DNA from: Candidatus Nitrospira nitrosa
GTDB lineage: Bacteria; Nitrospirota; Nitrospiria; Nitrospirales; Nitrospiraceae
Assembly: GCF_001458735.1 (NCBI RefSeq)
Contig: NZ_CZQA01000001.1
Coordinates: forward strand, 744,001-808,000
Length of the DNA: 64,000 nucleotides
Reading direction: 5' to 3'
Shown piece after piece: positions 37,167 through 57,218 of the stretch (positions are counted from its first letter, which is position 1; each line of letters begins with the position of its first letter). Position numbers and translations under genes: made by a program. The notes under the pieces were generated by a model. That model was given only the letters and a program-made list of their open reading frames with translations, was not told the DNA's origin and ran no database searches.

Positions 37167-37171
37167 AGAGT

Positions 37172-40251: not shown

Positions 40252-40323
40252 AGGGGAAGCGATGCAGCGATTGCAATCCATGGCTCAACCTTGACCTCAG
40301 CCTTCTTCTGAAAGGAGGACGCC

Positions 40324-40476: not shown

Positions 40477-40526
40477 ATTGACAGGTTTATTTGGTTGAGC
40501 CGAGCAGACAACCAGAGGTTCGTGTG

Positions 40527-41216: not shown

Positions 41217-41225
41217 GGGAGCAGC

Positions 41226-41324
41226 ATGACAGCCAAGACAATGACATCCGCCGGCCTGGGTGCTCGACATGATCGGATTGTCAACAACTATGAACAGAGA
41301 AAGATAGGAAAGGCTATGACATGA
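41226..41324 (+). CDS. Possible 32-aa coupled leader peptide
   Basis: ATG 41226 follows GAGGGAGCAGC. The peptide is MTAKTMTSAGLGARHDRIVN plus NYEQRKIGKAMT. Its TGA (41322-41324) overlaps the USP ATG at 41321 (ATGA), an arrangement expected of translational coupling. It is polar and basic, with no membrane segment. The coupling and ribosome site support it, but the short length makes chance possible. Confidence 0.4.
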   Translation: MTAKTMTSAGLGARHDRIVNNYEQRKIGKAMT

Positions 41325-42178: not shown

Positions 42179-42189
42179 AAGGATTGAAG

Positions 42190-42549: not shown

Positions 42550-42675
42550 CACAGCGTGTCGGTCCAGCGTACTGACCAGCTCTGCTTTCCGTCTCGTCTC
42601 GCGATACAGCTTTGTATTCTTATAGTCTGTGGCCGGGCAAGCGCTTGATCTGGAGAAAGGAATCCTGGCATCGAG

Positions 42676-42969
42676 GTGTTTCTCCGATCCGGATGTCCGC
42701 ATTGTGAAGCCGCAAAGACCTTCCTTAACGATCTTCGACGTGAGCGGCCATCGCTTCAGATCGCCGTCTACGATATTGCGGAGAATCCAGCCGCACGGCG
42801 GCGACGTGCAACCTTGTTTGTTGACCGAGGCATGACCAGCGTCGGCGTTCCCACCTTCCTCATCGGCACAGAACTACATGCCGGTCGCTGGTTGAAGCTG
42901 AGCGGTGGAGGAGTGATGGTACGCCTGGGCATCGTTTTGATATTGAAACCAGAATGGCTGGCGCTTTAG
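42676..42969 (+). CDS. Thioredoxin-fold (glutaredoxin/NrdH-like) protein with CPHC
   Basis: A 97-aa small thiol-disulfide protein: FLRSGCPHCEAAKTFLNDLR has the CxxC redox site, LQIAVYDIAENPAARRR follows, and SVGVPTFLIGTELHAGRWLK holds the cis-Pro loop (GVP). The start is uncertain: GTG at 42676, or an unusual ATC two codons upstream, which is better spaced from AAAGGA. The C-terminal end overlaps the next gene's start by 16 bases. A role in thiol redox or periplasmic cytochrome chemistry is plausible but unproven. Confidence 0.65.
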   Translation: MFLRSGCPHCEAAKTFLNDLRRERPSLQIAVYDIAENPAARRRRATLFVDRGMTSVGVPTFLIGTELHAGRWLKLSGGGVMVRLGIVLILKPEWLAL

Positions 42970-45728
42970 ATACACGTACGATGAGAACAGTTCGTCCGCT
43001 CTACATTCCGCCCCTGGAGGCCGATCACACTGAGTTCGGCTCGCTCATCATGCGAGATGGATCGACCGCTGCAATTCGGCCGGCTGAACCGACCGATGCA
43101 ACACTGTTGCAACAGTTCGTCAGCCGCTTGTCACCCGAGTCCAGACGCCACCGGTTCTTTTCGGAGAGCCTACCTCCGGTCGAGGCCGTCGCCAGTTTGT
43201 GTCATTCTTCAGATCCCTGTTCCCAGTTCACATTGATCGTGACACGAATGTGGGAAGGGCAGCAGCACATTATTGCCGCCGGGTCCTACTGGGCGAAGGA
43301 TGCACAAACAGCCGAGGTGGCAATGGCCGTGGATGACGGCTTCCATGGGAAAGGGCTAGGAACGCTGCTACTGGAACGACTGGCCCTCGTCGCCATCCGA
43401 CACAATTATTCCCACCTGTGGGCTGTCACTCACGCAGACAATCTGGCTATGCGCGAAGTGTTTCGAGAATCGGGGTTTACATCGCATGAAGCCTATGAAG
43501 GCGACGACATGGAAGTGGAACTGTCGTTGATTCCCACGGAAACGACCGTCACTCGCGCCGAGGTCCGAGAACGGCTTGCCGCCACCGCGTCGCTCCGACC
43601 GTTTTTCCACCCACGCTCGGTGGCACTGATCGGTGCCTCGCGCGATCCCAAAAGTATCGGCTATCGACTTCTCGAGGCACTTCGAGCCAATGAATTTCAG
43701 GGCGCCATCTATCCGGTCAATCCAAATGCTTCGGAGATCGCTGGAGTCCCGGTCTATCACTCAGTTCATGCGATTCCTGAGCCCATCGATCTCGCCGTCA
43801 TCGCCGTACCACGGCAAGACGTCTTATCCGTCGTCGATGAGTGTGCGGGTAAAGATGTTCGGGTATTGGTGGTCATTACGGCAGGCTTTGCCGAAGTGGG
43901 AGCTGACGGAGTGGCACTCCAGAAACAGCTTCTTGAAAAGGTCCGGCAGTACGGGATGCGCATGGTTGGGCCTAATTGCTTTGGGATCTTGAACACAGCC
44001 CCCGATGTACAATTGAACGCGACCTTCACCACGCTGTTTCCCCCACGAGGTCGTGCCGCTATGTCGTCGCAGAGCGGCGCCATCGGGATTGCGACTCTTG
44101 CCGGCGCACGGCGGTTCCACTTGGGCATCTCTTCTTTCGTGAGTGTGGGAAACAAGGCCGATGTGTCCACCAACGATCTGTTGCAGTATTGGGAGGAAGA
44201 CCCAGCCACACATGTCATCCTGCTCTATGTCGAGTCTCTCGGCAATCCGCGAAAATTCGCCCGTATCGCGCGACGCGTGAGCCGTCGCAAACCGATCGTT
44301 GCGGTCAAAGCGGGACGATCACAATCAGGGCGACGGGCGGCCAGTTCTCACACCGCAGCTCTTGCAGCTAGCAATGTGGCCGTCGACGCGTTGTTCCATC
44401 AAGCCGGTGTCATTCGCACGGAATCGCTCGAAGAATTGTTGGCGCTGGCCGATGGTTTATCGAATCAACCCCTTCCTCCGGGACGACGCGTGGGAATCAT
44501 CACAAACGCCGGAGGACCGGCCATTCTTTGTACCGACGCCTGCGAGACAGGCGCGTTGGTTGTTCCCGAACTGTCCACCCAGACCAAGGCAAGCCTAGCA
44601 ACATTTCTCCCCTCTGCCGCCGCCTTAAGCAATCCTGTCGATCTGATTGCCTCCGCCACGCCGGACCAGTACGCCAAAGCTATTGAAACCCTCCTATTGG
44701 CGGCGGAGATCGATGTACTCATCATTCTGTATATATCCGTGGCTGTAACCGACACGGCAGACATCGCCGACGGTATCCTGGCTGGAATTGAAAATGGGCG
44801 GAAAGCAGGCGTGACGGCTAAGCCCGTGCTCATTGGTTGGATGGCGGAAGGAGACCTGGACCGTACGTTTCACCTTCAAACGGAGACCATCCCGGTCTAC
44901 CACTTACCGGAAACGCCTGCACTCGTGCTCAGCAAATCGACATCTTACAGGGAATGGCAGCAACAGCAGCCGGGGATGGTTCCTGACTTCGATGATCTGG
45001 ATCTTTCTACCGTGCGAAAGATCTGTGCCGACGCGCTCTCGTGCCGCGGAGCTGGTTGGTTGACGACCGAGGAGACACGAAGAGTTCTGAGTGCGATCAG
45101 ACTTCCTGTTCAGGCTGGCGGTGTGGCCAGAACAGCCGATGAAGCAGTCGCCATGGCAGGGCAAGCCGGCTATCCGGTTGCCATCAAACTGGCCTCGCAT
45201 CAGATTGTCCACAAGACCGAGGTCGGTGGCGTGCAGTTGAATCTCACGGACGAGGAGACCGTCCGTAAAGCATTTGAGTCGATCAGAACACGACTCTCTG
45301 AGATCAACCAGCGCGACGCCATGGATGGGGTACTCGTGCAGTCGATGGTGACCGACGGTGTGGAAGTCATGATCGGCGTTACCGACGACCCGGTATTTGG
45401 CCCTTTAATTGCGTTCGGCCTTGGGGGGATTCACGTTGAAATTCTTGGTGATGTGCAGTTTCGCATCACGCCCCTCACCGATCGTGACGCGGCAGAAATG
45501 ATCAGAGGAATCAAAGGCTATCGGCTGCTGACCGGCTATCGCGGACATCCTCCGGCGGATTTGGAAGCGTTGGAAGAAACCCTGCTGCGGGTATCTCGCC
45601 TCGTTGAAGAAATTCCAGAAATCCGTGAACTCGACTTGAATCCGATCTTCGCACTCCCACCAGGCCAAGGCTGTCGTATCGTGGATGCGAGGATACGAAT
45701 CGATCATCACAACCTGCGACCTTCTTAA
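42954..45728 (+). CDS. GNAT / ADP-forming acyl-CoA synthetase fusion
   Basis: A 924-aa fusion. Residues about 25-195 are a GNAT domain (RDGSTAAIRPAEPTDATLLQ; VDDGFHGKGLGTLLLERLAL; HADNLAMREVFRESGFTSHE). The remainder is an ADP-forming acetyl-CoA synthetase: CoA-binding domain (HPRSVALIGASRDPKSIGYR), ligase domains (MVGPNCFGILNTAPDVQLNA, SSQSGAIGIATLAG), the phospho-His region (GRRAASSHTAALAASNVAVD) and a C-terminal ATP-grasp domain (GYPVAIKLASHQIVHKTEVG, EIRELDLNPIFALP). Such proteins either make ATP from acyl-CoA or act as protein acetyltransferases (PatZ-like); the phospho-His is kept, so the ligase could be active. Confidence 0.92.
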   Translation: MAGALDTRTMRTVRPLYIPPLEADHTEFGSLIMRDGSTAAIRPAEPTDATLLQQFVSRLSPESRRHRFFSESLPPVEAVASLCHSSDPCSQFTLIVTRMWEGQQHIIAAGSYWAKDAQTAEVAMAVDDGFHGKGLGTLLLERLALVAIRHNYSHLWAVTHADNLAMREVFRESGFTSHEAYEGDDMEVELSLIPTETTVTRAEVRERLAATASLRPFFHPRSVALIGASRDPKSIGYRLLEALRANEFQGAIYPVNPNASEIAGVPVYHSVHAIPEPIDLAVIAVPRQDVLSVVDECAGKDVRVLVVITAGFAEVGADGVALQKQLLEKVRQYGMRMVGPNCFGILNTAPDVQLNATFTTLFPPRGRAAMSSQSGAIGIATLAGARRFHLGISSFVSVGNKADVSTNDLLQYWEEDPATHVILLYVESLGNPRKFARIARRVSRRKPIVAVKAGRSQSGRRAASSHTAALAASNVAVDALFHQAGVIRTESLEELLALADGLSNQPLPPGRRVGIITNAGGPAILCTDACETGALVVPELSTQTKASLATFLPSAAALSNPVDLIASATPDQYAKAIETLLLAAEIDVLIILYISVAVTDTADIADGILAGIENGRKAGVTAKPVLIGWMAEGDLDRTFHLQTETIPVYHLPETPALVLSKSTSYREWQQQQPGMVPDFDDLDLSTVRKICADALSCRGAGWLTTEETRRVLSAIRLPVQAGGVARTADEAVAMAGQAGYPVAIKLASHQIVHKTEVGGVQLNLTDEETVRKAFESIRTRLSEINQRDAMDGVLVQSMVTDGVEVMIGVTDDPVFGPLIAFGLGGIHVEILGDVQFRITPLTDRDAAEMIRGIKGYRLLTGYRGHPPADLEALEETLLRVSRLVEEIPEIRELDLNPIFALPPGQGCRIVDARIRIDHHNLRPS

Positions 45729-45766
45729 ACTCACTCAAGCTAAGTATAGCGATCGTTGGGCCAGTG

Positions 45767-46216
45767 TTACTGCTCCGGATGCGGGTCTTTTCTGATCAGC
45801 GCGAGGTAGAGCAGCGTATCGGCGAGGTCTTGGTCGGTCATGGTGGGGTCGGGAAACATGCCGGTGCCGGGATGGCCTTCTCGAATGGCGCGGGCTCGCT
45901 CTTGATTGGTTTTCAAATGCAATGCATCAGGATTGCGCAAATCCGAGGGAGGCGGATTCAGCTTGGCGATAAGCTTAGCGGTGTCCGCTTCCACTCGGGG
46001 TATCCGATACAAGTACCCATCGATCCCATGGCAGTAGTAACACACGCCTTTGCCATTAAAGATATCTCGCCCTCGCAGGATATTTCCTTTTAACTTCCCG
46101 CTCGGTGGACTGGCTGGAGCTTCAGCCCACACATCATGGGTTACGGATACTGTCTCTACTCCCAACCAGCCCGCAAGCAGGATACCGCATACGGTCAACC
46201 AAACTTTCTTGTTCAT
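45767..46216 (-). CDS. Monoheme c-type cytochrome
   Basis: A 149-aa exported cytochrome. The start at ATG 46214-46216 (MNKKVWLTVCGILLAGWLGV) gives a signal peptide or anchor. Heme site CYYCH in GKGVCYYCHGIDGYLYRIP; distal Met probably in GHPGTGMFPDPTMTDQD. The region between (IAKLNPPPSDLRNPDALHLK) is longer than in the other small cytochromes. It is the last gene of the leftward run and is convergent with the synthetase fusion gene. Confidence 0.9.
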   Translation of the reverse strand: MNKKVWLTVCGILLAGWLGVETVSVTHDVWAEAPASPPSGKLKGNILRGRDIFNGKGVCYYCHGIDGYLYRIPRVEADTAKLIAKLNPPPSDLRNPDALHLKTNQERARAIREGHPGTGMFPDPTMTDQDLADTLLYLALIRKDPHPEQ

Positions 46217-46304
46217 TTGGTCTTTCTGGCCTGTCTCATCCAATGGGTTGCTGGGCGTATCTGTTCACCGTGCCCAGCCAGAGAGACCGAGCTCATCTAA
46301 TCAA

Positions 46305-46784
46305 TCAGTGCCCACTGCAGCAGGTATTGCCCCGGTCTTCCGGAATCGTCTTCATCGTGGTGAAGATCGTGTCGCGCTCGTCCGCATTGGTAACGTTATC
46401 AATGGCAGGATAAAGCGCCTTCTCTTCCTTTCTATTGTGAGAGCCCAAGAGGTTGAGCAAAGCCTGCTCCTCTTGATCACTATTGAGATCCTGGCTCTCC
46501 ACTTTCCGATGAATCGCATCAAGCAGCTGCTTGATCTGCTCATGCTCAAATCGCATCACGGGGGTCGGCCCGTCCTCGATCATCCCGGTTTTCTCTTCCC
46601 ACATTGGAAACAGCAGCTCCTCTTCCCAGACGATATGCCGTTGGAGCCCGACTTTGAATTCTTTGAATGCGTCCTTCGCCTTGGCAAAGTCCGATCGTTT
46701 CGATGTCTGAAAGGTCTTGAACAATTCATCCAGCCGGTCATGATCCTCCGCGTACAATGCCGTGATCGTGTTCTGCTCGCTCAT
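46305..46784 (-). CDS. Hemerythrin-domain protein
   Basis: A 159-aa non-heme di-iron protein. The ligand pattern is visible: AEDHDRLDELFKTFQTSK, LQRHIVWEEELLFPMWEEKT, MRFEHEQIKQLLDAIHRK and LGSHNRKEEKALYPAIDN. It ends in CCSGH, an unusual Cys-Cys-His tail that might bind a metal. The ATG at 46782-46784 follows GGGGGA. Hemerythrins bind O2, NO or repair Fe-S clusters; this one could be YtfE-like, but the N-terminal ScdA domain is absent. Confidence 0.9.
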   Translation of the reverse strand: MSEQNTITALYAEDHDRLDELFKTFQTSKRSDFAKAKDAFKEFKVGLQRHIVWEEELLFPMWEEKTGMIEDGPTPVMRFEHEQIKQLLDAIHRKVESQDLNSDQEEQALLNLLGSHNRKEEKALYPAIDNVTNADERDTIFTTMKTIPEDRGNTCCSGH

Positions 46785-46851
46785 TGATTCCCCCGTCATA
46801 CCCACACAGGTACCTTCAGTTCGCTATCACACACCGGCAGACTCGAGAGTC

Positions 46852-47154
46852 TTATCGCTCTCTCCGCTCCCGTATCGCGTCTTTGCCTGCTTGCAAAGCC
46901 GCTTCCACATCAGCCCGGCGCTCATCGACAAATTGTCTACCCCGATTGATCACTTCATCAAGCGCCGCCCGCGCCTCTTTGGCTTTCTCGATCACCTCGT
47001 CCTCCGTCTTTCTTGCATACCCTTTGATTTCTCGCCGGGTATCCTCGCCGGACCTCGGAGCCAGAAGAAATCCGGTCATGATCCCCATCATGGCGCCGCC
47101 GAGAAATGCCAACGCTACTGCCAGTCCTGAATCCTCATCGTTACGAGTCGTCAT
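46852..47154 (-). CDS. YtxH-domain protein
   Basis: A 100-aa protein with one N-terminal membrane helix (GLAVALAFLGGAMMGIMTGF) followed by the glycine/Leu-Leu-Ala-Pro motif (LLAPRSGEDTRREIKGYARK) of the YtxH family. The rest is a highly charged amphipathic helix (DEVIEKAKEARAALDEVINR, DVEAALQAGKDAIRERRER). The ATG at 47152-47154 follows GGAGGG. Family members are linked to general stress responses. Confidence 0.9.
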   Translation of the reverse strand: MTTRNDEDSGLAVALAFLGGAMMGIMTGFLLAPRSGEDTRREIKGYARKTEDEVIEKAKEARAALDEVINRGRQFVDERRADVEAALQAGKDAIRERRER

Positions 47155-47341
47155 GGTCGACCCTCCTGGATAACACATGGTTCATCTCTGTCAACGCGCT
47201 GTGCCGGACGAAGCTCATCACGGCACAACGACCACAGCTTACTAAAGGAATCAGTTGGAATACCACCCCCACAGGCAAAATCTCACGACGATTTCGCCAC
47301 GCTGCGTAACGCTGAACATCGTCGGCAGAAATGATGCAGGG

Positions 47342-48604: not shown

Positions 48605-49135
48605 TCACTCGGTCATTCCACCTCTGCGCCCGCGATGCCCCATCCCTTCTCTGCCACCCATGTCGCCGCCAGGTCCCATCCCTTCTCGATGCCCCATCAT
48701 GCCATGCCTCGCAGAGAAGGTTTGCTCGTAGTGAATGAGGGCCCAGATTTCGTTGTCGGACAAGACCGAACCGAATGCGATCATGGCGGTCCCGGGTGAT
48801 CCATACTTGATGGCCCAGAAGACTTCGCCCTCCGTACGATGGTGCCAGAATCCATGATGCTGAAAGTTACGCGGCGCGGGATTCATACTCACCGCTCCCG
48901 GCCCTTTGCCGTCCCCTTCTATCCCATGACAGGTGACGCACCCCCCCTTGCCGTTGTACAGCGACTTACCGTTCTCAATGACTTCAGGAGTATTCGATAA
49001 AGGATTCTTGAGAGCTCTCGCTTCAGCCAGCTTATCTGCCGGCACGACTGGTTGCATCATGTGTCGTTCAGCAGCATCCGCAGACACCGCGAAGTACAGC
49101 GAAGCGACCATCACCATCAACAGACTCGTTTTCAT
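48605..49135 (-). CDS. Monoheme c-type cytochrome
   Basis: A 176-aa exported cytochrome. Signal MKTSLLMVMVASLYFAVSAD; heme site CVTCH in GKGGCVTCHGIEGDGKGPGA; distal Met in GSPGTAMIAFGSVLSDNEIW. The heme region and PAPRNFQ segment match the C-terminal domain of the cytochrome at 50955-52364. The C-terminal 40 residues are low complexity, rich in Gly, Met and Arg (MMGHREGMGPGGDMGGREG-type). AAAGGA and AAGGAG lie just before the ATG. Confidence 0.92.
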   Translation of the reverse strand: MKTSLLMVMVASLYFAVSADAAERHMMQPVVPADKLAEARALKNPLSNTPEVIENGKSLYNGKGGCVTCHGIEGDGKGPGAVSMNPAPRNFQHHGFWHHRTEGEVFWAIKYGSPGTAMIAFGSVLSDNEIWALIHYEQTFSARHGMMGHREGMGPGGDMGGREGMGHRGRRGGMTE

Positions 49136-49177
49136 CTCCTTGTTCCTTTCGTCGATGGGACCAACGGCCTTCCGACG

Positions 49178-50239
49178 TTAGAGATCCAATTCCACCATTT
49201 TACGGTGGAATCGAGTAATGACGTTCGGATCAGGTGTCAGCCTGATCTGAGCTTCGTCCTTTCCTTTGTAGGGCAGCAGGTTCAGGACATAGCGCAAGCT
49301 TTCCAGTCGCGCAGCCTGCTTGTCGTTCGCCTGCACGATGATCCAGGGGCTAAAGGTCGAGTGCGTTTTGCTGAACATTTCCTCTTTGCAGCGGGTATAC
49401 GCATCCCACAGCTCCTGCGCCTTTTCATCAACCGGACTCAGTTTCCACTGCTTGAGCGGATTCTGCCGCCTCGCTTCGAATCGCCTGGCTTGTTCATCCT
49501 TGGAGATAGAGAACCAGAACTTAATGATGGTGACTCCGTCTTCATAGAGCATGTGCTCAAATTCCGGAACCTGCTGGAGAAATCGCTGGTGTTCCTTTTT
49601 CGTGCAGAATCCCATGACCGGCTCGACCACCGCGCGGTTGTACCAACTTCGGTCGAAGAAGACGATCTCACCTCTGTTCGGCAGCTGATGAATATAGCGC
49701 TGGAAATACCACTGGCCTCGTTCTGCGTCGGTCGGCTTCGGCAGCGCCACGACTCGCATCGCACGAGGATTCAGATGCTCGGTGAACCGGCGAATCGTGC
49801 CGCCCTTTCCGGCCGCATCCCGTCCTTCGACCAAAATGGCGATGCGCTCCCCACTGCTTTGAATCCACCGTTGCAGCCTGACCAATTCAACCTGCAACTG
49901 TCGTAAGTCCTGCTCATAGAGCAGAGTCTTGCGAACTTCCTCGATATCGACGGCTTTGTTGGCAAGGAGTTTCAGAAACCCTTTCCTTGTGTTGACCCTT
50001 CGAAGATCATCCGCTGTCAAGACGTATCCCGGTTCACCGATGCGTCCAAGCCCCTGGGCGATCATGGCACTGCGCGGAACCTGGTAGCCGTCTCCCTCCC
50101 TCGGGACCTTCGTGGGAATCGTCTCCAACTCGTTTGCATCCCTACCGGATGCGGACGGCAAGAGGTCATCAATGTCATCGGTATCCGTCTGCCCCTTGCG
50201 ATCTTTTGACTTCCTCGACGATTCTCCGCTCGCTGCCAT
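49178..50239 (-). CDS. ppk2: Polyphosphate kinase 2
   Basis: A 353-aa PPK2 that interconverts nucleotides and polyphosphate. Walker A GRDAAGKGGTIRRFTEHLNP (about residue 140), Walker B-like GEIVFFDRSWYNRAVVEPVM with the lid and Arg residues, FEHMLYEDGVTIIKFWFSIS, and KDEQARRFEARRQNPLKQWK are the classic motifs. The C-terminus (VDEKAQELWDAYTRCKEEMF, STFSPWIIVQANDKQAARLE) fits single-domain PPK2. The N-terminal 60 residues are low-complexity and charged. The ATG follows AAGGAGG. It lies next to cytochrome genes. Confidence 0.95.
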   Translation of the reverse strand: MAASGESSRKSKDRKGQTDTDDIDDLLPSASGRDANELETIPTKVPREGDGYQVPRSAMIAQGLGRIGEPGYVLTADDLRRVNTRKGFLKLLANKAVDIEEVRKTLLYEQDLRQLQVELVRLQRWIQSSGERIAILVEGRDAAGKGGTIRRFTEHLNPRAMRVVALPKPTDAERGQWYFQRYIHQLPNRGEIVFFDRSWYNRAVVEPVMGFCTKKEHQRFLQQVPEFEHMLYEDGVTIIKFWFSISKDEQARRFEARRQNPLKQWKLSPVDEKAQELWDAYTRCKEEMFSKTHSTFSPWIIVQANDKQAARLESLRYVLNLLPYKGKDEAQIRLTPDPNVITRFHRKMVELDL

Positions 50240-50456
50240 GAGAAACCTCCTTGGCCCTAACCCATATTACTCATGAACACTTCTACTGCAATCAGGGATT
50301 CGCTGCGACGACTAGCCTACGATCGGCAGGCTCTCCCCCGGCTACCTCGACGTATTGTTTCAAGGAGGCCTTCGTCCCGCTGGCCTCCGCGTACCCGTCT
50401 CGTCACGCGACTCCGCAATCTCATGACGAACCGCCATGAATAATGCGGGCTAAGAA

Positions 50457-50816
50457 TCAGAACATCACGTTTCGGTCTCGCTCAGCCACGGCCTTGATGT
50501 AGTCCGGCATACCTTTGATAGAAGCACCAGCCACCAGATCCGCCACAGTGACCTGACGAGCCACCGCACAGGCTCCACAGACCCAGATCTGCACACCAGC
50601 CGCCTGAACTGCGGCAAGCAAATCTTTCAGAGGCGTCAAATTCACACCGGTGACATGATCCGCCACACCCTTCCGCCCCAACGTCACCGCTTCATTCCAC
50701 AACCAGAGCACCACATCATGTCCTTGCTCTTTCGCCGTCTTCGCAGCCATGAATGGCAGGGTTGCCATGGTGGGATCGTCGGTTCCTCGACTACCAGAAA
50801 TAATGAATGTTGCCAT
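50457..50816 (-). CDS. DsrE-family protein
   Basis: A 119-aa DsrE/TusD-like sulfur-relay protein. The N-terminal strand FIISGSRGTDDPTMATLPFM and helix precede ILVLW-like GHDVVLWLWNEAVTLGRKGV; VQIWVCGACAVARQVTVADL carries two Cys (CGAC), a possible sulfane acceptor site. The last part ends MPDYIKAVAERDRNVMF. Such proteins relay sulfane sulfur between enzymes. It is the last gene of a leftward group that contains TsdA, YeeE and OsmC genes. Confidence 0.88.
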   Translation of the reverse strand: MATFIISGSRGTDDPTMATLPFMAAKTAKEQGHDVVLWLWNEAVTLGRKGVADHVTGVNLTPLKDLLAAVQAAGVQIWVCGACAVARQVTVADLVAGASIKGMPDYIKAVAERDRNVMF

Positions 50817-50829
50817 TGTCTTCCTCCGT

Positions 50830-50935
50830 GATGAACTGAAGAGCCGATAGCTGATGGCCTATAGTGTACGGCACCGGCAAGATAGCGGAGCACTCGCTCT
50901 TTCTCTCACAGACGAGACACCATCAGCCGTTCGCC
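50830..50935. repeat. Word-like inverted repeat between a cytochrome and dsrE
   Basis: GAGCCGATAGCTGATGGCCT is followed by TATAGTG; the far arm is GAGACACCATCAGCCGTTC, whose complement contains GGCTGATGGTGTCTC. The GCTGATGG word is shared with the repeat at 37098-37166 and, in part, with 56222-56262. Like those, it fills a gap between co-directional genes. Confidence 0.5.
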
Positions 50936-50954
50936 CTTACCCCCCGACACTCAA

Positions 50955-52364
50955 TCACTTCGCCAGACTCCTGATGTAGTGAATCAACTGCCACACCTGC
51001 TCGTCTGGCAGCGAAGCAAACGACATCATTCCGGTTCCCGGTGAGCCATTCTTGATGATCCAGAATAATTGACCATCCGAAATATCCCGCATCATCGCTC
51101 CGCACGTAAAGTTTCTTGGTGGTGGCATCAAGGCTGCTCCCATGAGTCCTTTGCCATCGCCTTGCTCTCCATGACACATCACACAGGCAACGGGCTGCGC
51201 CGTTTTGAGAAACAGTTCTTTCCCCGCTTTGATGGCCCCTGCCGATGACGAGAGCGGATTGGTCTTGGTCAAGAATGTGTCCGGTGCCTTAGCCGTCTTG
51301 CGTGACTGCACACAGGCACCGCTCTGCCCTCCTGCCGCTGCCGGCACCTCCGGAATTCCCTTGAATGTTACCTTCAAGTAGGCGATCACGTCCGCAACCC
51401 CCTGCTGGCCGATCGTGAGCCCCCAGTAGGGCATATTGGGCGATTTCCCGACGGCCACTCCGCCATGGTTGATGACGGTATAGAGATATTCCATCGGAAG
51501 CTTATCGAAGGGCATGTTGGCATGAATGGCGGGCTTAGGTTCCAGTCCCGATGCGGCAGGTCCGTCACCCTTGCCGGTCAATCCATGACATTGGGCGCAG
51601 TATTCCTTATAGAGCACTTTGCCGCGCCCGGCGTCGGCCTGACTGAACTCGGGGCTCGTCCAGGGCTCGTAATACTGAAAGTCCGGGGCCCCCTGAACCA
51701 TCAGATAGCCGATCACCGCGCGAAGCTGTGGCTCCGTTGCGTCTGCGAGAAACTCGCCGCTGTGCGGCACAAAGTCTTGCGGGTTGAGGCCAAAGCGAAA
51801 CAGCCAGTCCTTGTCGTATCGCTGACCGGATTTCTGCAGCGCCGCACTCTGCTGCCCTCCGATCAGTTTGCCGTTCTCTTCGATCGTATGGCAGCCAAGG
51901 CACGCATGGGCCTTATATGCCACCCCTCCGAACGCCACGTCGAACTTGGTCACCTTTGACAGATCGAAGGCTCCGACTGTGACGCGCGGATCCTTGTTGT
52001 GTTCGGCGAAGTAATCGGCGATCGCGCTGGCCTCTCCCTCAGTGACAACCGGGTGTTTCGCCGAAACATCTGTCAGGTCCCATCGATAGCCTTTGACATA
52101 GAGCGGCGCCTCTTTTCCGGTCAGCCAGCGAATAAGCCAGGACCGCTGGTATTTGCTGCCGGCCCAGATCAAGTCCGGGGCCCGGAGGTTGAACCGAGAA
52201 TCGGCTGTTCCTTCTAACCGGTGACACTGCACACAAGTCTGTTGGAGGAGATCCTTGGCGTGAGATTGATCACTCGCAAGAGAAGGATCTTGAAATAGGA
52301 CCAGCAGTCCCGCTGCCAGTGTCACTGCCGTCGCCATCCTCCTTCTCATTCCCTGCAGACCCAT
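50955..52364 (-). CDS. Four-heme c-type cytochrome
   Basis: A 469-aa exported multiheme cytochrome. The ATG at 52362-52364 follows GGGAGGGAGC, then a signal peptide (MATAVTLAAGLLVLFQDPSL). Four CxxCH sites: CVQCH (VQCHRLEGTADSRFN), CLGCH (HACLGCHTIEENGKLIGG), CAQCH (YCAQCHGLTGKGDGPAA) and CVMCH (VACVMCHGEQGDGKGLMGAA). The last domain is close to the cytochrome at 48605-49135. Repeated cytochrome c modules in one chain suggest an internal electron wire; partner unknown. It is downstream of the OsmC gene by 33 bp. Confidence 0.94.
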   Translation of the reverse strand: MGLQGMRRRMATAVTLAAGLLVLFQDPSLASDQSHAKDLLQQTCVQCHRLEGTADSRFNLRAPDLIWAGSKYQRSWLIRWLTGKEAPLYVKGYRWDLTDVSAKHPVVTEGEASAIADYFAEHNKDPRVTVGAFDLSKVTKFDVAFGGVAYKAHACLGCHTIEENGKLIGGQQSAALQKSGQRYDKDWLFRFGLNPQDFVPHSGEFLADATEPQLRAVIGYLMVQGAPDFQYYEPWTSPEFSQADAGRGKVLYKEYCAQCHGLTGKGDGPAASGLEPKPAIHANMPFDKLPMEYLYTVINHGGVAVGKSPNMPYWGLTIGQQGVADVIAYLKVTFKGIPEVPAAAGGQSGACVQSRKTAKAPDTFLTKTNPLSSSAGAIKAGKELFLKTAQPVACVMCHGEQGDGKGLMGAALMPPPRNFTCGAMMRDISDGQLFWIIKNGSPGTGMMSFASLPDEQVWQLIHYIRSLAK

Positions 52365-52396
52365 CGCTCCCTCCCTCTGTTGTCTTGGGTGTAAGC

Positions 52397-52816
52397 TCAT
52401 AATCCCTCGGCTTTGTGATGGGTATGTGGATTAAGTTTGATTGCAATGTTCGGTGCCACGGCGATGGACTGATGCACGGTACAACCGTGCGCAACCTTCA
52501 GCAGTCGCTCCCGTTGATCTGCCGTGATGCGATGGGGAAGATGGATCGCAATGTCGATACTGCCAACACGATGCGGTCCTTCCACCATCGTCCATTCCGC
52601 CTCGACGGCCAAGCCCTCTCGGGCGATACCGTGTCGCCCGCAGAATTGTCCCACAAAGTACGCAACACAGCTCGCAACAGACCCGACATAGAGTTCAACC
52701 GGACCCATGCCGGCATCCTGCCCTCCATCCTCGACCGGTTGGTCGGTGATGATTCGATGCTTCCCGCTCACAATGTCGTATCGAGTCCCACCATGAAAGG
52801 TCGCTGTGAGTTTCAT
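52397..52816 (-). CDS. OsmC-family protein
   Basis: A 139-aa OsmC/Ohr-like protein. It starts MKLTATFHGGTRYDIVSGKH at ATG 52816, preceded by GGAGG, and has GPVELYVGSVASCVAYFVGQ with one conserved Cys, then a second Cys in KVAHGCTVHQSIAVAPN, the peroxidase-type pair. Some OsmC proteins reduce peroxides; others in sulfur clusters handle sulfane sulfur. It overlaps the upstream YeeE gene stop region by four bases and is likely in one operon. Confidence 0.92.
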   Translation of the reverse strand: MKLTATFHGGTRYDIVSGKHRIITDQPVEDGGQDAGMGPVELYVGSVASCVAYFVGQFCGRHGIAREGLAVEAEWTMVEGPHRVGSIDIAIHLPHRITADQRERLLKVAHGCTVHQSIAVAPNIAIKLNPHTHHKAEGL

Positions 52817-53340
52817 GTCGCTCTTACCTCCGGAAGTTTTACCGCCCCCCATAGGCAGAGCACACCGAGCGGTAACGCAATGAAGAGTCCGTTGATCCCG
52901 AGTGATTCATGAATAGTGACCGGCCCAAATGCTCCGAGCGAGGCTAACGACGATTCAAGGTCCGGCCAGAGGAAGGCAAACGTCAACGCGCCGAACAGCC
53001 CTCCGACTATCGTCATCCACGCGTCAGGTTTTCCCTCCGCCGCAGCAGCCAGTGCCGTCCCTGGACAATAGCCCGTAACGGCAAACCCCACGCCGAAGAT
53101 CAAGCCTGCGACCACGATCCCCGGCACGTAGAGGTCTTTCACCTTCATATGGGCCACACCAACCGCATCCAATACATGTACCCCTATCAACCCTACGCCG
53201 ATGGCGGTCATGATGAGCTTCATAATCGTGAAATCTCTCAGCCTCAATGTACCGATGATCTTCGTGTAGCTCGAGGCGCCCGACAGTTGAAGGACCGCGC
53301 CGAATGCTGCGCCGAGGACTAGACCCAAGAGTAATGTCAT
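52813..53340 (-). CDS. YeeE/YedE-like membrane protein, half 1 (DUF6691 type)
   Basis: A 175-aa inner-membrane protein with about five helices and the YeeE signature FGVGFAVTGYCPGTALAAAA, containing the conserved Cys that passes thiosulfate or sulfide-like anions in the TsuA family. Start and stop show tight coupling: its ATG overlaps the next gene's stop (ATGA at 53337-53340), and its stop overlaps the OsmC start. The two half-size proteins probably form one transporter. Confidence 0.9.
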   Translation of the reverse strand: MTLLLGLVLGAAFGAVLQLSGASSYTKIIGTLRLRDFTIMKLIMTAIGVGLIGVHVLDAVGVAHMKVKDLYVPGIVVAGLIFGVGFAVTGYCPGTALAAAAEGKPDAWMTIVGGLFGALTFAFLWPDLESSLASLGAFGPVTIHESLGINGLFIALPLGVLCLWGAVKLPEVRAT

Positions 53341-53876
53341 TGCTCTTCTCGTTCAGGGTAGAGCCACCGAGCCGTCAGGATCGCGCTCGAAAAAAGGGCC
53401 GTGGAGAATGCGAACGAGCTCACGGCCAACTGCGACACCCCGCTGATCATATGGCCGGAGGTACAACCTCCCCCGAAGCGGGCACCGAATAGCAAGAGGA
53501 ACCCTCCGATAAATGACCAGATCAGACGCTTCACCGGAGTCGGTCCGAAGCGCTGTGCCCAGAGGGAAGGAACGACGCTCACGCTGAACCGGTTTGTGAC
53601 CATCGCTGCCAGAAAAGCTCCAATGGGAATCCCTACAACGAAAAGAAATTCATACGTGGCCAAGGTCCACCCTTTGCTGGCTGCACTCAGATACGGGCTG
53701 CTGTCGGCCACTTCAGGAAGCACGGCATGCAAGAGCACACCATCCAACACCACATACTGCGTGGATACCCCGATCGGCTGGATGAGAGCCACAGCCACCG
53801 ACAAGACCACGCCGATTGCAAGACCACCTGCCCACCAGGGTAAAATTGGAACAATCGCCTTCTCGTGATTAGCCAT
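53337..53876 (-). CDS. YeeE/YedE-like membrane protein, half 2
   Basis: A 179-aa inner-membrane protein (ATG 53874-53876, MANHEKAIVPILPWWAGGLA) with about five helices. FLLLFGARFGGGCTSGHMIS is the YeeE/YedE signature with the conserved Cys in GGCTSGH. Together with the downstream half protein this fits a split TsuA-type thiosulfate or sulfur-compound importer. It lies between the TsdA-like gene and the first-half gene, with the ATGA overlap. Confidence 0.92.
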   Translation of the reverse strand: MANHEKAIVPILPWWAGGLAIGVVLSVAVALIQPIGVSTQYVVLDGVLLHAVLPEVADSSPYLSAASKGWTLATYEFLFVVGIPIGAFLAAMVTNRFSVSVVPSLWAQRFGPTPVKRLIWSFIGGFLLLFGARFGGGCTSGHMISGVSQLAVSSFAFSTALFSSAILTARWLYPEREEQ

Positions 53877-53908
53877 CTTTTGTCGTATGCACGTCGGCAC
53901 TCATATGA

Positions 53909-54763
53909 TCAATAGGGTGCATCCGCCGGTTTGCCCCCCTTCGGCCAATCATGAATCTTGTCGGGAAAGTCAGGTCGAGGTTGCGTATTAATATAGGCCG
54001 CCGCGTCGAGGGCTTCCTCGTCCGTCACCGTCCAGCCCCAGCCTCGTGGCATGTTCGCTTTGATAAAGGCAGCAGCCACGCTGACCCGCGCCATTCCTGC
54101 GCCAATATTGTACGAACGCGGTCCCCACACGGGCGGCGCCGCCATGGTACCTTGTCCGTCGGAGCCATGGCAGAAGACACATTTTTTCTCAAAGACTTTC
54201 TTGCCGTTGATAGAGTCCGGTTGATGAGTCGAGGTCAGTCGCGGAATTCCTCGCCACGGCACCGTACTGCCGGCTGGCATGTTTTTCGACAGCCATTTGA
54301 TGTAGGCTACGATGCCCGTCAGCTTCACACTGTCCGGCGGGAGAGGCTTCCCATTCAGACTGCGTTCGAAACACTCGTTGATCCGATCGGCTAATGTCAT
54401 CTGACGGCCGGCTCGCTCACGATACTGCGGGTAGAGCGCACTGATACCGACGAATGACGCAGCATTCGGGTTAAGCCCTCCGTCCAAATGACAATTCGTG
54501 CAGTTGAGCGCATTGCCGACATACAGCTTTCCATACACTTGCGTATTGACAACCATCTCGTAGCCCAGTCGAATCTGTTCACCCCTCAAATCACCGGGAA
54601 TCGTTTCTGGCGACGGCGGGGCAAACAACGCGTCGACCGACGACTCTGTACTTGGACGACCAGTCGCCTCCTCACTCCCCGTCACCCGTGGAGGCGGGGC
54701 ACAACTGATCACCCCAGCCAGCCCATACACCAGCAAGACCCAGACGGCGACCGGTCGGCTCAT
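53909..54763 (-). CDS. tsdA: TsdA-like diheme cytochrome (thiosulfate dehydrogenase type)
   Basis: A 284-aa exported diheme cytochrome, probably a lipoprotein (VLLVYGLAGVISC). The N-terminal domain has VGNALNCTNCHLDGGLNPNA and ASFVGISALYPQYRERAGRQ, then TLADRINECFERSLNGKPLP; the Cys in NECF is 43 residues after the first heme Cys, the spacing of the Cys heme ligand of TsdA. The second heme is CVFCHGSDGQG, with likely Met ligands in SYNIGAGMARVS or FIKANMPRG. TsdA joins two thiosulfates to tetrathionate or the reverse. Here it sits beside YeeE sulfur importers, DsrE and OsmC genes, which supports a sulfur role. Confidence 0.9.
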   Translation of the reverse strand: MSRPVAVWVLLVYGLAGVISCAPPPRVTGSEEATGRPSTESSVDALFAPPSPETIPGDLRGEQIRLGYEMVVNTQVYGKLYVGNALNCTNCHLDGGLNPNAASFVGISALYPQYRERAGRQMTLADRINECFERSLNGKPLPPDSVKLTGIVAYIKWLSKNMPAGSTVPWRGIPRLTSTHQPDSINGKKVFEKKCVFCHGSDGQGTMAAPPVWGPRSYNIGAGMARVSVAAAFIKANMPRGWGWTVTDEEALDAAAYINTQPRPDFPDKIHDWPKGGKPADAPY

Positions 54764-54773
54764 CGATTCCCTC

Positions 54774-54992
54774 TCACTTCTTCGAACTGGACGCAGGAGT
54801 GCACGTATTAAGCCCCAGCAATGCGAACAGCGGGCAATACCCCACCGCCCCAGTCAGTAGCAGAATCCCCCCCACCGCAAGTGCGGCCCCTGCCACACCG
54901 GTCGAAAGCCCCGCAAAGAGGCCTACGATGATCGCCACCACCCCGGCTCCAATCCTTATCGGTCGTTCGATTCCCCCAACATTACATGTCAT
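54774..54992 (-). CDS. DUF2892 small membrane protein
   Basis: A 72-aa protein with two membrane helices, the family pattern: MTCNVGGIERPIRIGAGVVA followed by IIVGLFAGLSTG, then ALAVGGILLLTGAVGYCPLF and ALLGLNTC. The Cys residues (TCNVGG, GYCPLF, NTCTP) are characteristic of the family, which often accompanies rhodanese or sulfur-transfer genes. It is just upstream of the TsdA-like gene on the same strand. Confidence 0.93.
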   Translation of the reverse strand: MTCNVGGIERPIRIGAGVVAIIVGLFAGLSTGVAGAALAVGGILLLTGAVGYCPLFALLGLNTCTPASSSKK

Positions 54993-55079
54993 GTCACTCC
55001 CTCCTCATCTCACCATTGACAGTCATTCCAGCTTCGCACCTGGTCTGTAGGAGACACCTCTCGGCGATTAGATTCATTT

Positions 55080-55472
55080 TTATGGTTGGCCAGGAGCCTC
55101 GATCTTAAATGTGCGCACATAGGCCAACACATCCCAGATTTCTTCGTCCGAGAGTGCATGTTTCCAAGCACCCATGACCGTGTTCGGCTTGCCGTCGTGA
55201 ATTCGGCGAAACAACGCCCCATCCAGTCGACTCTGGACGGCGAGCGATGTGAGGTCTGCCGGAGGTGGAACGAATTGGAGTCCTCGTACGCCTTTGCCGT
55301 CGATTCCGTGACAGAGTATACAGGTGTTCACGTAAATCTCCCGTCCGGTGACTGCGTCACCGCCTTCTTTGGCAAGGACCTCGGTCTGCTTAACTCCAAG
55401 ATTACTGAACCCCAGTCCACACAGACCGGCGACCAGTGCACACAACACTACCTCTTGTACCGTCATACGCAT
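55080..55472 (-). CDS. Monoheme c-type cytochrome
   Basis: A 130-aa exported cytochrome, paralogue of 26032-26430. Signal MRMTVQEVVLCALVAGLCGL; heme site CILCH in REIYVNTCILCHGIDGKGVR; PPPADLTSLAVQ and distal Met in TVMGAWKHALSDEEIW; final helix VLAYVRTF. Its homologue lies next to hypE, 29 kb away, so the same electron carrier type serves two loci. Confidence 0.93.
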   Translation of the reverse strand: MRMTVQEVVLCALVAGLCGLGFSNLGVKQTEVLAKEGGDAVTGREIYVNTCILCHGIDGKGVRGLQFVPPPADLTSLAVQSRLDGALFRRIHDGKPNTVMGAWKHALSDEEIWDVLAYVRTFKIEAPGQP

Positions 55473-55689
55473 ATCTTATCCCTTCCCTTGGTACGACCTT
55501 GCGATGACTGTGCCACTCTGTCGCAGAGCAGAAGGAGAGCTTCCTCTCAATTCGTCGAGGAGTTATCGGCCAGATTCTTGGTGGCGATAGGAGCGACAAC
55601 GAAGATTGCGGACAAATGCCACAATGCCTCCATGCCCACTGGCGCAGGATGCTACAGTGTTCAGTCAACGACTCTCACTTGGGTCTTGA

Positions 55690-55767
55690 ACCTGAGTTCC
55701 AAGTTGCGAGTTTCAGGTTCTGGATCTGGTCATTAAGAGCCAAAAACGTGAACCTCGCAACTTGAAA
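55690..55767. repeat. Word-like inverted repeat between OsmC and cytochrome genes
   Basis: CAAGTTGCGAG (55700-55710) and its reverse complement CTCGCAACTTG (55754-55764) flank a 43-base centre with further GTTTC and GGTTC words (TTTCAGGTTC on the left, GAACC on the right). The right arm touches the stop codon of the OsmC gene. It shares the GTTC/GTTTC vocabulary with 27769-27908 and 31575-31651. Confidence 0.6.
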
Positions 55768-56202
55768 TCAACAGATCGTAGGTTCCAGTGTGACCTTGGC
55801 TTTCATCGAGTTGGAAATCAGACAATTATGCTCTGCCTTTTCAATGAGTTCCTTCGCTTTGGCTGCATCACCGCCGGACGTCAACGTGATTGAAGGCCGG
55901 ATGGTAATCGCTGTGAATTGAAATTTTCCCTCCACGATCTCCAGCCGTCCTTCCGCCGTACTCTCATACGAGGAAAAGGCAAGACCCGCTCGTTCCGCGA
56001 CGGCGAGAAACGTCGTCATCAAACAGACGTTGGCGGACGCCACGAAGAGGTCTTCGGGAGACCAGATGTTCTCATGCCCTTTGAACTCCGGTGGGGTTGC
56101 CACCTGCACATCGGGTTTCCCTGTGCAGGAGATCATGCCCTTGCGTTGTGCTGTCCACTTCACTGAGGTCTGATACAGATAGACTTTGCTCTTGGATTCC
56201 AT
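55768..56202 (-). CDS. OsmC-family protein
   Basis: A 144-aa OsmC/Ohr-like protein, different from 52397. It contains GKPDVQVATPPEFKGHENIW, SPEDLFVASANVCLMTTFLA (first conserved Cys) and LIEKAEHNCLISNSMKAKVT (second Cys), the peroxidase-type pair. ATG near 56202. It is followed by a repeat and, further downstream, the monoheme cytochrome at 55080. It may act in thiol or peroxide protection of the sulfur region. Confidence 0.93.
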   Translation of the reverse strand: MESKSKVYLYQTSVKWTAQRKGMISCTGKPDVQVATPPEFKGHENIWSPEDLFVASANVCLMTTFLAVAERAGLAFSSYESTAEGRLEIVEGKFQFTAITIRPSITLTSGGDAAKAKELIEKAEHNCLISNSMKAKVTLEPTIC

Positions 56203-56221
56203 TCGTCCTCCTTCTTATTTC

Positions 56222-56262
56222 TTTCGCCGGCAGCTGACGGCTATCGGCTCCTTCACGGCTTG
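56222..56262. repeat. Partial word-like repeat between dsrE and OsmC genes
   Basis: GCCGGCAGCTGACGGCTATC runs into GGCTCCTTCACGG, ending at the TGA of the exported DsrE gene (56253-56255). It shares CTGACGG/CTATCGG words with the GCTGATGG repeats at 37098 and 50830. It is short and lacks a clear second arm, so it may be a degenerate copy. Confidence 0.4.
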
Positions 56263-56720
56263 ATATAGACCCACCCTTGCTCTTGTCTCTCCAGCAATCT
56301 CGCCATCGCCGGTACGGTGTCGCCGACTTCACCGATCAAATCTTCTCGTGTCACCTTCATTGTCTTCATGGTGTTCGAACAAGCGATGTAGCTCACACCA
56401 TACGCGTGCCGTAGCTCGGTCAGTTCCGCGGCAAACAGCGTACCCTTCTTGATGAGAAGTGGAAGTCCGGCCCCATGCACGACCAGCTCGACCCTGAGAG
56501 TCTCTGGTGAAAACTCCTGGTAGAGATTCTTGATGTTGTTAAGCGCACCACGTTGGACTTTTTCATCACCAGAATTCAGATGGAGTACGACACGATGCGG
56601 CTGACCGCCTTCCGGCGCCACATCATCGCCCGCTCCCCACGCTGGTTGCCCAAGCATCATGAATGCCGTGCACGGGAGAAAGAGCAGTATCCATCTCAAC
56701 TTCCGAGCGTGCCTCATCAC
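56253..56720 (-). CDS. Exported DsrE-family protein
   Basis: A 155-aa periplasmic DsrE-like protein. Signal MMRHARKLRWILLFLPCTAF, cleavage near PAWGAGD. The fold is seen in HRVVLHLNSGDEKVQRGALN, NNIKNLYQEFSPETLRVELV, VHGAGLPLLIKKGTLFAAEL and YGVSYIACSNTMKTMKVTRE, where the Cys is in the position of the sulfur-acceptor Cys. A periplasmic DsrE beside TsdA, YeeE and DUF2892 genes fits sulfane transfer outside the cytoplasm (inference). Confidence 0.9.
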   Translation of the reverse strand: MMRHARKLRWILLFLPCTAFMMLGQPAWGAGDDVAPEGGQPHRVVLHLNSGDEKVQRGALNNIKNLYQEFSPETLRVELVVHGAGLPLLIKKGTLFAAELTELRHAYGVSYIACSNTMKTMKVTREDLIGEVGDTVPAMARLLERQEQGWVYIKP

Positions 56721-56735
56721 TGGTTCATACCTCCG

Positions 56736-57218
56736 TTATTCCGCTCCTACCATCTTGTTCACCCACTCACCGGTCACGTGTGTCAACGCAATGACGCACA
56801 GAGCAATGAACAGATGTTCACCGATGACCTTCCACGGAGCAATCCCTTGTGCTCGAGCGACGAAAAAGCTGAGCACGGTGAGTAAGAATAGCCCCCACAC
56901 GATGCTCATGACAATCGCGTGCTCGAGCGGACCGAAGATGACGGGAACGACAAACGTCAGGGAAACCAAGAACTTCGCAGCGAAGGTGGCGAGCGTCGCC
57001 TCCCAGATCAGGCTGGTCGGACCGCTGTTCTTGGACTCTTCGGACACATGGATGCCGAGCGCATCCGACATGGCATCGGCGATGGCGATCGTCAGAATGC
57101 CACCGATCACGATCGCACGGGAATGCGTGCCGGAATGCAGTCCAACCATCAACCCAAGGGTGGTAATAACCCCTGACGTGAGGCCAAAACTGATCCCCGT
57201 TTTCCACGCCGTCTTCAT
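56736..57218 (-). CDS. VIT1/CCC1-like membrane protein
   Basis: A 160-aa membrane protein. SFGLTSGVITTLGLMVGLHS, then IVIGGILTIAIADAMSDALG and IHVSEESKNSGPTSLIWEAT, match the first two helices and the acidic loop of VIT/CCC1 iron-manganese transporters; later helices are FLVSLTFVVPVIFGPLEHAI and SIVWGLFLLTVLSFFVARAQ. It ends LTHVTGEWVNKMVGAE. It may move Fe2+ or Mn2+; the length is near the shorter family members. It precedes the exported DsrE gene by 15 bp. Confidence 0.82.
   Translation of the reverse strand: MKTAWKTGISFGLTSGVITTLGLMVGLHSGTHSRAIVIGGILTIAIADAMSDALGIHVSEESKNSGPTSLIWEATLATFAAKFLVSLTFVVPVIFGPLEHAIVMSIVWGLFLLTVLSFFVARAQGIAPWKVIGEHLFIALCVIALTHVTGEWVNKMVGAE

Follow-up and report, generated by a model that had tools for sequence, protein, structure and literature searches.

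The diheme cytochrome TsdA is already known from Nitrospirota: it was reported in 143 metagenome-assembled genomes of the phylum from Bohai Sea sediment, and thiosulfate oxidation was proposed for the phylum (PMC12345210). A tsdA region has also been described in 'Ca. Nitrotoga' NtogaGL1b (PMC9239080), and soxCD has been called 'prevalent among Nitrospirales' without other sox genes (PMC11033732). The sulphur section of a further paper deals with two systems only, SorAB, described as 'largely restricted to lineage IV', and sulfide:quinone oxidoreductase (PMC12342949), and in the text available four other papers mention TsdA with no tie to Nitrospira (PMC10367259, PMC8115675, PMC7565560, PMC9326234). 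A locus built around a TsdA homologue is described here, at positions 50457-57218 of a 64,000-nucleotide stretch of Candidatus Nitrospira nitrosa DNA (the window; contig C1:744001-808000 of a 4.42 Mb genome in 15 contigs). The favoured reading, held with moderate confidence, is that Nitrospiraceae share a conserved sulfur-oxyanion locus, of which this is the comammox version, and that its TsdA would interconvert thiosulfate and tetrathionate, probably with net oxidation in the presence of O2. The locus is real and conserved, and is of more interest across the family than as a single module; the window holds a reduced form, and a fuller form is found in the genomes of N. moscoviensis and N. defluvii.

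The window's genome can be assigned by its sequence to comammox Nitrospira because ammonia monooxygenase is encoded (two PF02461 matches of equal score) and because its TsdA and that of Nitrospira sp. UW-LDO-01, presumably a 'Ca. Nitrospira nitrosa' strain, share 99% identity. The amoA gene is probably duplicated in this genome, with AmoA-family matches of identical score at C1:66037-66744 and C11:106121-106828.

TsdA identity and direction of catalysis

When the protein encoded at 53909-54763 was compared with PDB entries by phmmer, TsdA of Allochromatium vinosum was matched at E=2.4e-57 (4v2k) and its variants down to 3.5e-58 (200.3-197.5 bits), followed by 5lo9, which is presumably a Marichromatium entry, at E=1.5e-43 (152.3 bits). 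Membership of the SoxA family was rejected, as SoxA 1h31 reached 27.7 bits (E=1.3e-5) against about 200 bits for TsdA. The family sample consisted of 147 Nitrospiraceae genomes, in which TsdA was counted as present at a score of at least 280 bits; it was found in 99 of them, including 44 of the 51 in the window's genus, and neighbourhoods were taken around TsdA in 80 of the 99. TsdA identity spanned 49-99% over the Nitrospirota loci compared.

The A. vinosum residues Arg109, Arg119, Cys123, Ser127 and Arg224, from an active site in which residue roles have been described (PMC4423706), correspond to Arg117, Arg127, Cys131, Ser135 and Arg226 of the window protein, which has all five. Across 81 aligned rows (the 80 loci and the window) the heme-1 ligand Cys131 was invariant (81/81), the arginines were present in 80/81 (Arg117), 75/81 (Arg127) and 79/81 (Arg226), and Ser135 was present in 67/81 (Asn in 12, Gly in 2). 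A lipobox-like Cys21 (79/81 rows) predicts a periplasmic lipoprotein. The assignment to TsdA is strong on this sequence evidence, and both the TsdA-like identity and the Cys ligand of the original prediction were borne out.

The heme-2 ligand Met238 was strictly conserved (81/81). In the window it lies in the segment I-K-A-N-M-P, directly after Asn237, and a C. jejuni-like heme 2 is predicted because the preceding residue was Asn in 79/81 rows (Thr in 1, Ser in 1) and Lys in none; a Lys/Met switch of the A. vinosum type was rejected on the same count. Campylobacter jejuni TsdA has Asn254-Met255 with Met ligation where A. vinosum has Lys208-Met209 (PMC5146829), and the heme-2 potential has been reported as +172 mV in C. 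jejuni and as -129 mV (His/Lys) or +266 mV (His/Met) in A. vinosum (PMC6879331). The C. jejuni enzyme serves as a tetrathionate reductase, and its film voltammetry is biased to reduction (PMC5146829). The motif nevertheless leaves the direction of the window enzyme unfixed, because the C. jejuni enzyme in solution shows nearly the same rate in the two directions (1316 and 1265 U/mg; PMC5146829). The earlier claim that thiosulfate is converted to tetrathionate is therefore retained as to the type of enzyme and not as to direction, which the sequence does not settle.

The direction matters for a rival reading, tetrathionate respiration, in which TsdA would run in reverse at low O2, with quinol electrons arriving through a cytochrome bc-like complex and tetrathionate as an alternative acceptor. 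Asn237-Met238 is as in C. jejuni TsdA (PMC5146829, PMC6879331), Rieske and cytochrome b genes lie upstream of TsdA in 27 and 28 of 71 loci, and a sulfhydrogenase-type hydrogenase is also present in the window. This reading is nonetheless considered unlikely: the near-equal rates of the C. jejuni enzyme keep the motif from fixing direction, an oxidative SorA-like enzyme occupies the locus in 42/80 cases, and in the window no Rieske/cytochrome b pair adjoins TsdA. No molybdopterin TtrA was seen among the locus proteins in general domain scans; a genome-wide search for TtrA was not made.

Gene content across Nitrospiraceae

The genes of the locus, with two conserved neighbours, are as follows.

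56736-57218, minus strand: VIT-family-like membrane protein, 160 amino acids (Pfam PF01988, 30.2 bits, cut-off 28.1)
56253-56720, minus strand: exported DsrE-like protein (PF02635, E=3.9e-6; Sec-like N-terminus judged by eye)
55768-56202, minus strand: OsmC/Ohr-like protein 2, OsmC2 (Pfam OsmC, E=1.4e-18)
55080-55472, minus strand: monoheme cytochrome c, 130 amino acids, one CxxCH (Sec-like N-terminus judged by eye)
54774-54992, minus strand: YgaP-like transmembrane protein (DUF2892), 72 amino acids (Pfam PF11127, YgaP-like_TM, 2.2e-17)
53909-54763, minus strand: TsdA homologue, diheme, 284 amino acids (SoxA-TsdA_cyt-c, 2.4e-13, and a cytochrome c domain)
53337-53900, minus strand: YeeE/YedE C-terminal half, PmpA-like (YeeE2), 187 amino acids (Sulf_transp profile 168-306)
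52813-53340, minus strand: YeeE/YedE N-terminal half, PmpB-like (YeeE1), 175 amino acids (Sulf_transp profile 15-150)
52397-52816, minus strand: OsmC-like protein 1, OsmC1, start re-assigned from 52852 (Pfam OsmC, E=8.4e-11 on 52397-52852)
50955-52400, minus strand: tetraheme c-type cytochrome, 481 amino acids, four CxxCH
50457-50816, minus strand: cytosolic DsrE-like protein with CGAC (PF02635, E=1.4e-20)
49178-50239, minus strand: polyphosphate kinase 2 (PPK2), conserved neighbour (Pfam, 8.5e-96)
48605-49135, minus strand: monoheme cytochrome c, 176 amino acids, conserved neighbour (kept in 63/71 loci)

Every component named in the original prediction (two DsrE, one of them exported, two OsmC, a split YeeE/YedE, DUF2892 and a TsdA-like protein) was found in place on the minus strand. 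Its 'two further cytochromes' are both present, in wording that understates them, as one is the tetraheme protein. In relatives the conserved unit extends beyond the region first delimited, continuing from DsrE into PPK2 and a cytochrome; the corresponding stretch of the window is 48605-50816.

Six genes, DUF2892-TsdA-YeeE2-YeeE1-OsmC1-tetraheme cytochrome, form a tight series with operon-like packing. The gaps are 10 nucleotides between DUF2892 and TsdA and 8 between TsdA and YeeE2, and start and stop codons overlap by 4 nucleotides at YeeE2/YeeE1, YeeE1/OsmC1 and OsmC1/tetraheme cytochrome (with the OsmC1 start at 52816); 138 nucleotides separate the tetraheme cytochrome from DsrE. The 52816 start is probably the correct one because a GGAGGT site precedes it, and family-conserved sequence also begins at about that point. 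Promoter and terminator scans gave 4 matches against 4.7 expected from shuffles and 9 against 6.3, respectively. Cys3 and Cys53 of the YgaP-like protein were kept in 62/62 rows and Cys64 in 61/62, and the four CxxCH motifs of the tetraheme cytochrome, with Cys363 and Cys433, in 56/56.

Neighbours were counted on the same strand within 9-9.5 kb of TsdA, at identities of 45% or more and coverages of 60% or more. Downstream genes were scored in the 71 of the 80 loci that have 8 kb or more of sequence on that side, and upstream genes in the 71 that have as much on the other side. Downstream, OsmC1 was retained in 67 loci, DsrE in 64, the tetraheme and 176-residue cytochromes in 63 each, PPK2 in 54, a SorA-like gene in 40 and its diheme partner in 39. 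Upstream, the counts were 59 for the 130-residue cytochrome, 56 for DUF2892, 36 for OsmC2, 28 for cytochrome b, 27 for Rieske, and 13 each for the exported DsrE and the VIT-like protein; these last two, each present in 18 of all 80 loci, are accessory. The grouping exceeds chance because, across the family, a single strand repeatedly carries TsdA together with OsmC, DsrE and the tetraheme cytochrome. Over the 147 genomes, with no correction for kinship, DsrE and TsdA occurred together in 89, TsdA only in 10, DsrE only in 13 and neither in 35. Upstream of TsdA in one relative's locus (L159:5554-7886) lie genes for a Rieske protein, a small cytochrome c and a cytochrome b to which a heme c domain is fused, and such Rieske/cytochrome b genes may possibly form an extra bc-like complex.

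In N. moscoviensis and 'Ca. N. defluvii', which are taken here to belong to lineages II and I, and in UBC2, a molybdenum (Mo) protein of the sulfite oxidase family and a diheme cytochrome lie between OsmC1 and the tetraheme cytochrome. At a coverage of at least 35%, this pair was found in 42/80 TsdA loci, mostly in that position (L159:10353-12169 and L153, about 11245-13329, are examples with a two-domain diheme cytochrome, from lineages in which a 2025 survey gives SorAB as largely absent), and it is missing from the window. The best PDB match of the N. defluvii Mo protein was SorA 2blf (1.6e-72), presumably from Starkeya novella; 2xts, a sulfite dehydrogenase entry taken to be SoxCD, followed at 6.8e-36. 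Its NCBIfam scores were 324 bits for SorA (cut-off 600), 246 for SorT (570) and 214 for SoxC (420), and the proteins of three relatives scored 324.5, 318.8 and 312.4 against the SorA equivalog, all short of 600. The Arg, His, Cys and Tyr presumed to have roles in the SorA site are present in the L159 alignment. By sequence the relatives' Mo protein is SorA-like, below every family cut-off.

Label changes were compared with shuffled labels on a midpoint-rooted TsdA tree of 78 rows, from which three truncated loci were left out. The SorA-like label required 6 changes against 26.1 in shuffles, the gene being frequent outside the window's clade and absent from most of that clade. The SorA-like branch appears to have been lost from the locus in the window's lineage, a history that the tree pattern suits without proving. 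No orthologue was seen elsewhere in the window's genome, where five PF00174 matches were only 28-35% identical (aligned parts) to the SorA-like protein. SoxB and SoxY gave no match there at E<=0.001, with models that in 14 control genomes returned SoxY in 0/14 and SoxB in 10/14, the latter below cut-off.

Thirteen genomes had DsrE and lacked a 280-bit TsdA match, and ten of these loci were read. Five (L198, L199, L202, L203 and L205) kept the SorA-like gene, its diheme partner, the tetraheme cytochrome and DsrE, with OsmC1 found in all of them except L203. TsdA remnants lay near an intact DsrE in L200 (genome G096; 11003-11164, residues 1-53) and L201 (genome G002; 7695-7787, residues 255-284), which are apparent TsdA losses. 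L197 kept OsmC1, one YeeE half, the tetraheme cytochrome, DsrE and PPK2, and L196 kept DsrE, DUF2892 and cytochromes; the L204 contig ends just past DsrE. The old core appears to consist of OsmC1, the SorA-like pair, the tetraheme cytochrome and DsrE, with TsdA a frequent and separable member.

Sulfur carriers, uptake and the nearby hydrogenase

The cytosolic DsrE was very strongly conserved (82-98% identity over 31 rows from named relatives), and its CGAC motif kept Cys80 and Cys83 in 70/70 rows. In a phylum-wide sample (E<=1e-15) it was found in 34/198 genomes, 31 of them Nitrospiraceae and three outside at 37-58% identity. Conserved cysteines were also seen in OsmC1 (Cys62, Cys71 and Cys124, numbered from the longer start; 75/75 rows), OsmC2 (Cys60 and Cys127; 39/39) and the exported DsrE (a single Cys114; 12/12). 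A DsrE of the DsrEFH complex, which would have DsrF and DsrH as neighbours, was rejected: of the other four DsrE-family matches in the window's genome, the exported DsrE is the nearest, at about 5 kb, and the rest lie at distances of 101, 419 and 423 kb. YchN (E=0.0033) was the only PDB relative by sequence, and a structural model was uninformative (predicted local distance difference test score 62; Foldseek matched the DsrE-like chains 3mc3 at E 0.34 and 3pnx at E 1.0, and nothing at E<=0.001). Distant relatives on plasmids have a TusA-family neighbour in Nocardioides and none of that kind in Deinococcus; one locus (L133) carries two cytosolic DsrE copies (5193-5549 and 7240-7596). The proposal that sulfane sulfur is passed to carriers remains an inference, to which the invariant DsrE and OsmC cysteines lend weight and the position of all three TusA-family matches of the genome outside the locus does not.

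These proteins also allow the locus to be read as a reactive-sulfur defence or assimilation system, in which OsmC, DsrE, PmpAB and the cytochromes would act against persulfide, sulfide and thiosulfate stress, and TsdA would detoxify thiosulfate with negligible energy gain. OsmC itself, PPK2, hemerythrin and YtxH (by Pfam) and Hsp20 and a universal stress protein (by eye) give the surroundings a stress-type character, DsrE and OsmC outlast TsdA, and thiosulfate is a soil nitrification inhibitor, with tetrathionate named as a possible toxic product (PMC6091914). Six c-type hemes in a tight array, however, suggest electron flow beyond simple detoxification, and the recurring SorA-like dehydrogenase suits respiratory oxidation; the defence reading is regarded as possible, on the doubtful side.

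The YeeE pair was compared with TsuA, whose relay cysteines are 22, 91 and 293, Cys22 being the third (PMC11073785). In 19/19 rows Cys92 of the N-terminal half aligned with Cys91 and Cys146 of the C-terminal half with Cys293; no equivalent of Cys22 was present in the alignment of either half, and one further Cys per window half, Cys162 and Cys4, was seen in 17/19 and 1/19 rows. With two chains, no Cys22 and scores of 41.6 and 37.1 bits where 400 are required, the pair fell outside the TsuA/YeeE thiosulfate importer class. PmpB and PmpA have been described with Cys at the Cys91 and Cys293 positions, and pmpAB of Hyphomicrobium is not regulated by thiosulfate (PMC11582611). By sequence the pair is a short split importer of the PmpAB type.

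The pair was found in 18/80 TsdA loci, and each half in 16 of the 71 well-covered ones, so that it was rejected as a defining part of the locus; it comes and goes, because 13 changes are needed on the TsdA tree. The idea that YeeE takes the place of the SorA pair found no support in contrasts on the tree. The thiosulfate uptake originally suggested is less well supported: the split pair is there, but it is of the PmpAB type and lacks one of the three TsuA cysteines, and uptake is an optional part of the locus. Over 78 loci the exported DsrE and the YeeE pair occurred together in 10, YeeE only in 8, DsrE only in 8 and neither in 52 (p=0.0006, kinship-uncorrected); over eight independent pairs the median p was 0.125 (range 0.031-0.25), which is not significant when kinship is allowed for. 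In four loci, L060, L079, L087 and L088, the gene for the exported DsrE separates TsdA from YeeE, and a partnership of this DsrE with YeeE is a lead.

Four hydrogenase genes at window positions 34905-39442 match sulfhydrogenase models, below cut-offs; the 'sulfur-reductase' name of this hydrogenase class is historical. The original prediction linked H2 and sulfur metabolism, and a hydrogen-sulfur coupled unit with this hydrogenase, 11 kb away, would accord with the model matches and with the one contig shared by TsdA and hydrogenase in 20 of the 38 genomes encoding the two, at distances of 16-101 kb in 19 genomes and of 1.58 Mb in one. The hydrogenase (E<=1e-60) was found in 47/147 genomes against 99 for TsdA; TsdA was present in 38/47 hydrogenase-bearing genomes and 61/100 others (Fisher p=0.023, kinship-uncorrected), so that 61/99 genomes have TsdA without the hydrogenase and 9/47 the reverse, and the two do not form a single operon in the window. 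The link is weak, a functional connection is not supported, and the coupled unit is highly improbable. In one genome the match to the large subunit of the hydrogenase is split into three segments (G141:C107:151441-152640), through a broken gene or assembly errors. Between the hydrogenase and the sulfur locus, window positions 39769-47178 encode Hsp20, a phosphoribosyltransferase, a universal stress protein and a GNAT/acyl-CoA synthetase-like fusion (all by eye), then hemerythrin and YtxH; this interval looks like a stress or dormancy island.

Proposed mechanism and comparison with known systems

In the favoured reading, TsdA would interconvert thiosulfate and tetrathionate by way of a Cys-thiosulfonate at heme 1, and heme 2 (His/Met) would exchange electrons with the tetraheme and monoheme cytochromes, which would pass them to a high-potential cytochrome c pool and a terminal oxidase. 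With O2 the net reaction would probably be thiosulfate oxidation, with little energy gained or a nitrifier-inhibiting compound removed. In many relatives sulfite would be oxidised to sulfate by the SorA-like dehydrogenase, with the electrons entering the same tetraheme cytochrome, and the optional PmpAB, possibly with the exported DsrE, may bring thiosulfate or sulfane sulfur to the cytosolic OsmC and DsrE thiols. All steps beyond the TsdA reaction are inferred. The sulfur-module reading is upheld for TsdA and the sulfur linkage, strengthened by the SorA-like genes of relatives, and is weaker for uptake, direction and the hydrogenase.

Several observations weigh against this mechanism. The heme-2 motif is of the type found in C. 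jejuni, whose enzyme is a tetrathionate reductase. PDB matches of the tetraheme cytochrome, the presumed electron acceptor, do not go beyond the level of domains (best 7.6e-17, covering 76 residues). Part of the locus apparently works without TsdA, because DsrE, OsmC1 and the cytochrome persist where TsdA was lost. The TsdA-OsmC-DsrE grouping is not general for TsdA, because no such neighbours were found at E<=1e-4 beside TsdA of Burkholderia, Gemmatimonadota, Bacillaceae and Aliidiomarina (13 loci, up to 9 kb per side, several shorter). Finally, the surroundings could equally mark a stress island.

A more specific proposal is speculative and rather improbable. It envisages a SoxYZ-independent thiosulfate-sulfite oxidation locus in Nitrospiraceae nitrifiers, in which TsdA and an atypical SorA-diheme dehydrogenase would share one tetraheme cytochrome, and a PmpAB channel and the exported DsrE would relay sulfane sulfur to OsmC and the CxxC-DsrE in the cytosol. 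On this view, the atypical dehydrogenase would be what has been reported in Nitrospirales as orphan 'soxCD'.

Nitrospira are abundant nitrite oxidisers, comammox organisms included. If the favoured reading is true, the presence of TsdA in 99/147 genomes would mean that these bacteria may consume, produce or clear thiosulfate, tetrathionate and sulfite. This bears on nitrification in sulfidic or hypoxic zones, on thiosulfate as a nitrification inhibitor, and on the puzzle of why sox-like genes occur where a Sox system is lacking.

Among the literature titles, abstract openings and passages listed in the searches, none describes this gene cluster, subscription papers and supplements lying outside the search; as far as the literature was searched, TsdA with OsmC, DsrE, the tetraheme cytochrome and the SorA-like pair is a new arrangement around a known enzyme. 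The TsdA count of PMC12345210 is at phylum level, with no family, neighbourhood or residues described in the text available. The SorA-like gene of N. moscoviensis and N. defluvii was probably not counted in the sulphur section of PMC12342949. The orphan soxCD of PMC11033732 is possibly the same pair, a Mo protein and a diheme cytochrome with no other sox genes; the Mo protein here scores higher to SorA than to SoxC. In the relatives, the pair resembles SorA/SorB in its best PDB and NCBIfam match and in the first heme domain of the partner (SorB, 8e-10); it differs in falling under the SorA, SorT and SoxC cut-offs and in the second heme domain of the partner. Like PmpA and PmpB, the YeeE proteins are separate halves, each with a conserved Cys equivalent to TsuA Cys91 or Cys293; unlike them, they are linked to TsdA and measure 175 and 187 residues against the approximately 130 reported (PMC11582611). 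The tsdA region of NtogaGL1b is alike by description, with cytochromes and sulfur-compound transport in a nitrite oxidiser, and belongs to a betaproteobacterial ecotype (PMC9239080). With TsdA of A. vinosum (4v2k) and C. jejuni, the window protein shares the diheme layout, the Cys heme-1 ligand, the active-site Arg and Ser residues and the heme-2 Met; it differs from known TsdA in being a predicted lipoprotein encoded in an OsmC/DsrE/tetraheme cytochrome cluster, and from the A. vinosum enzyme in having Asn instead of Lys before the heme-2 Met.

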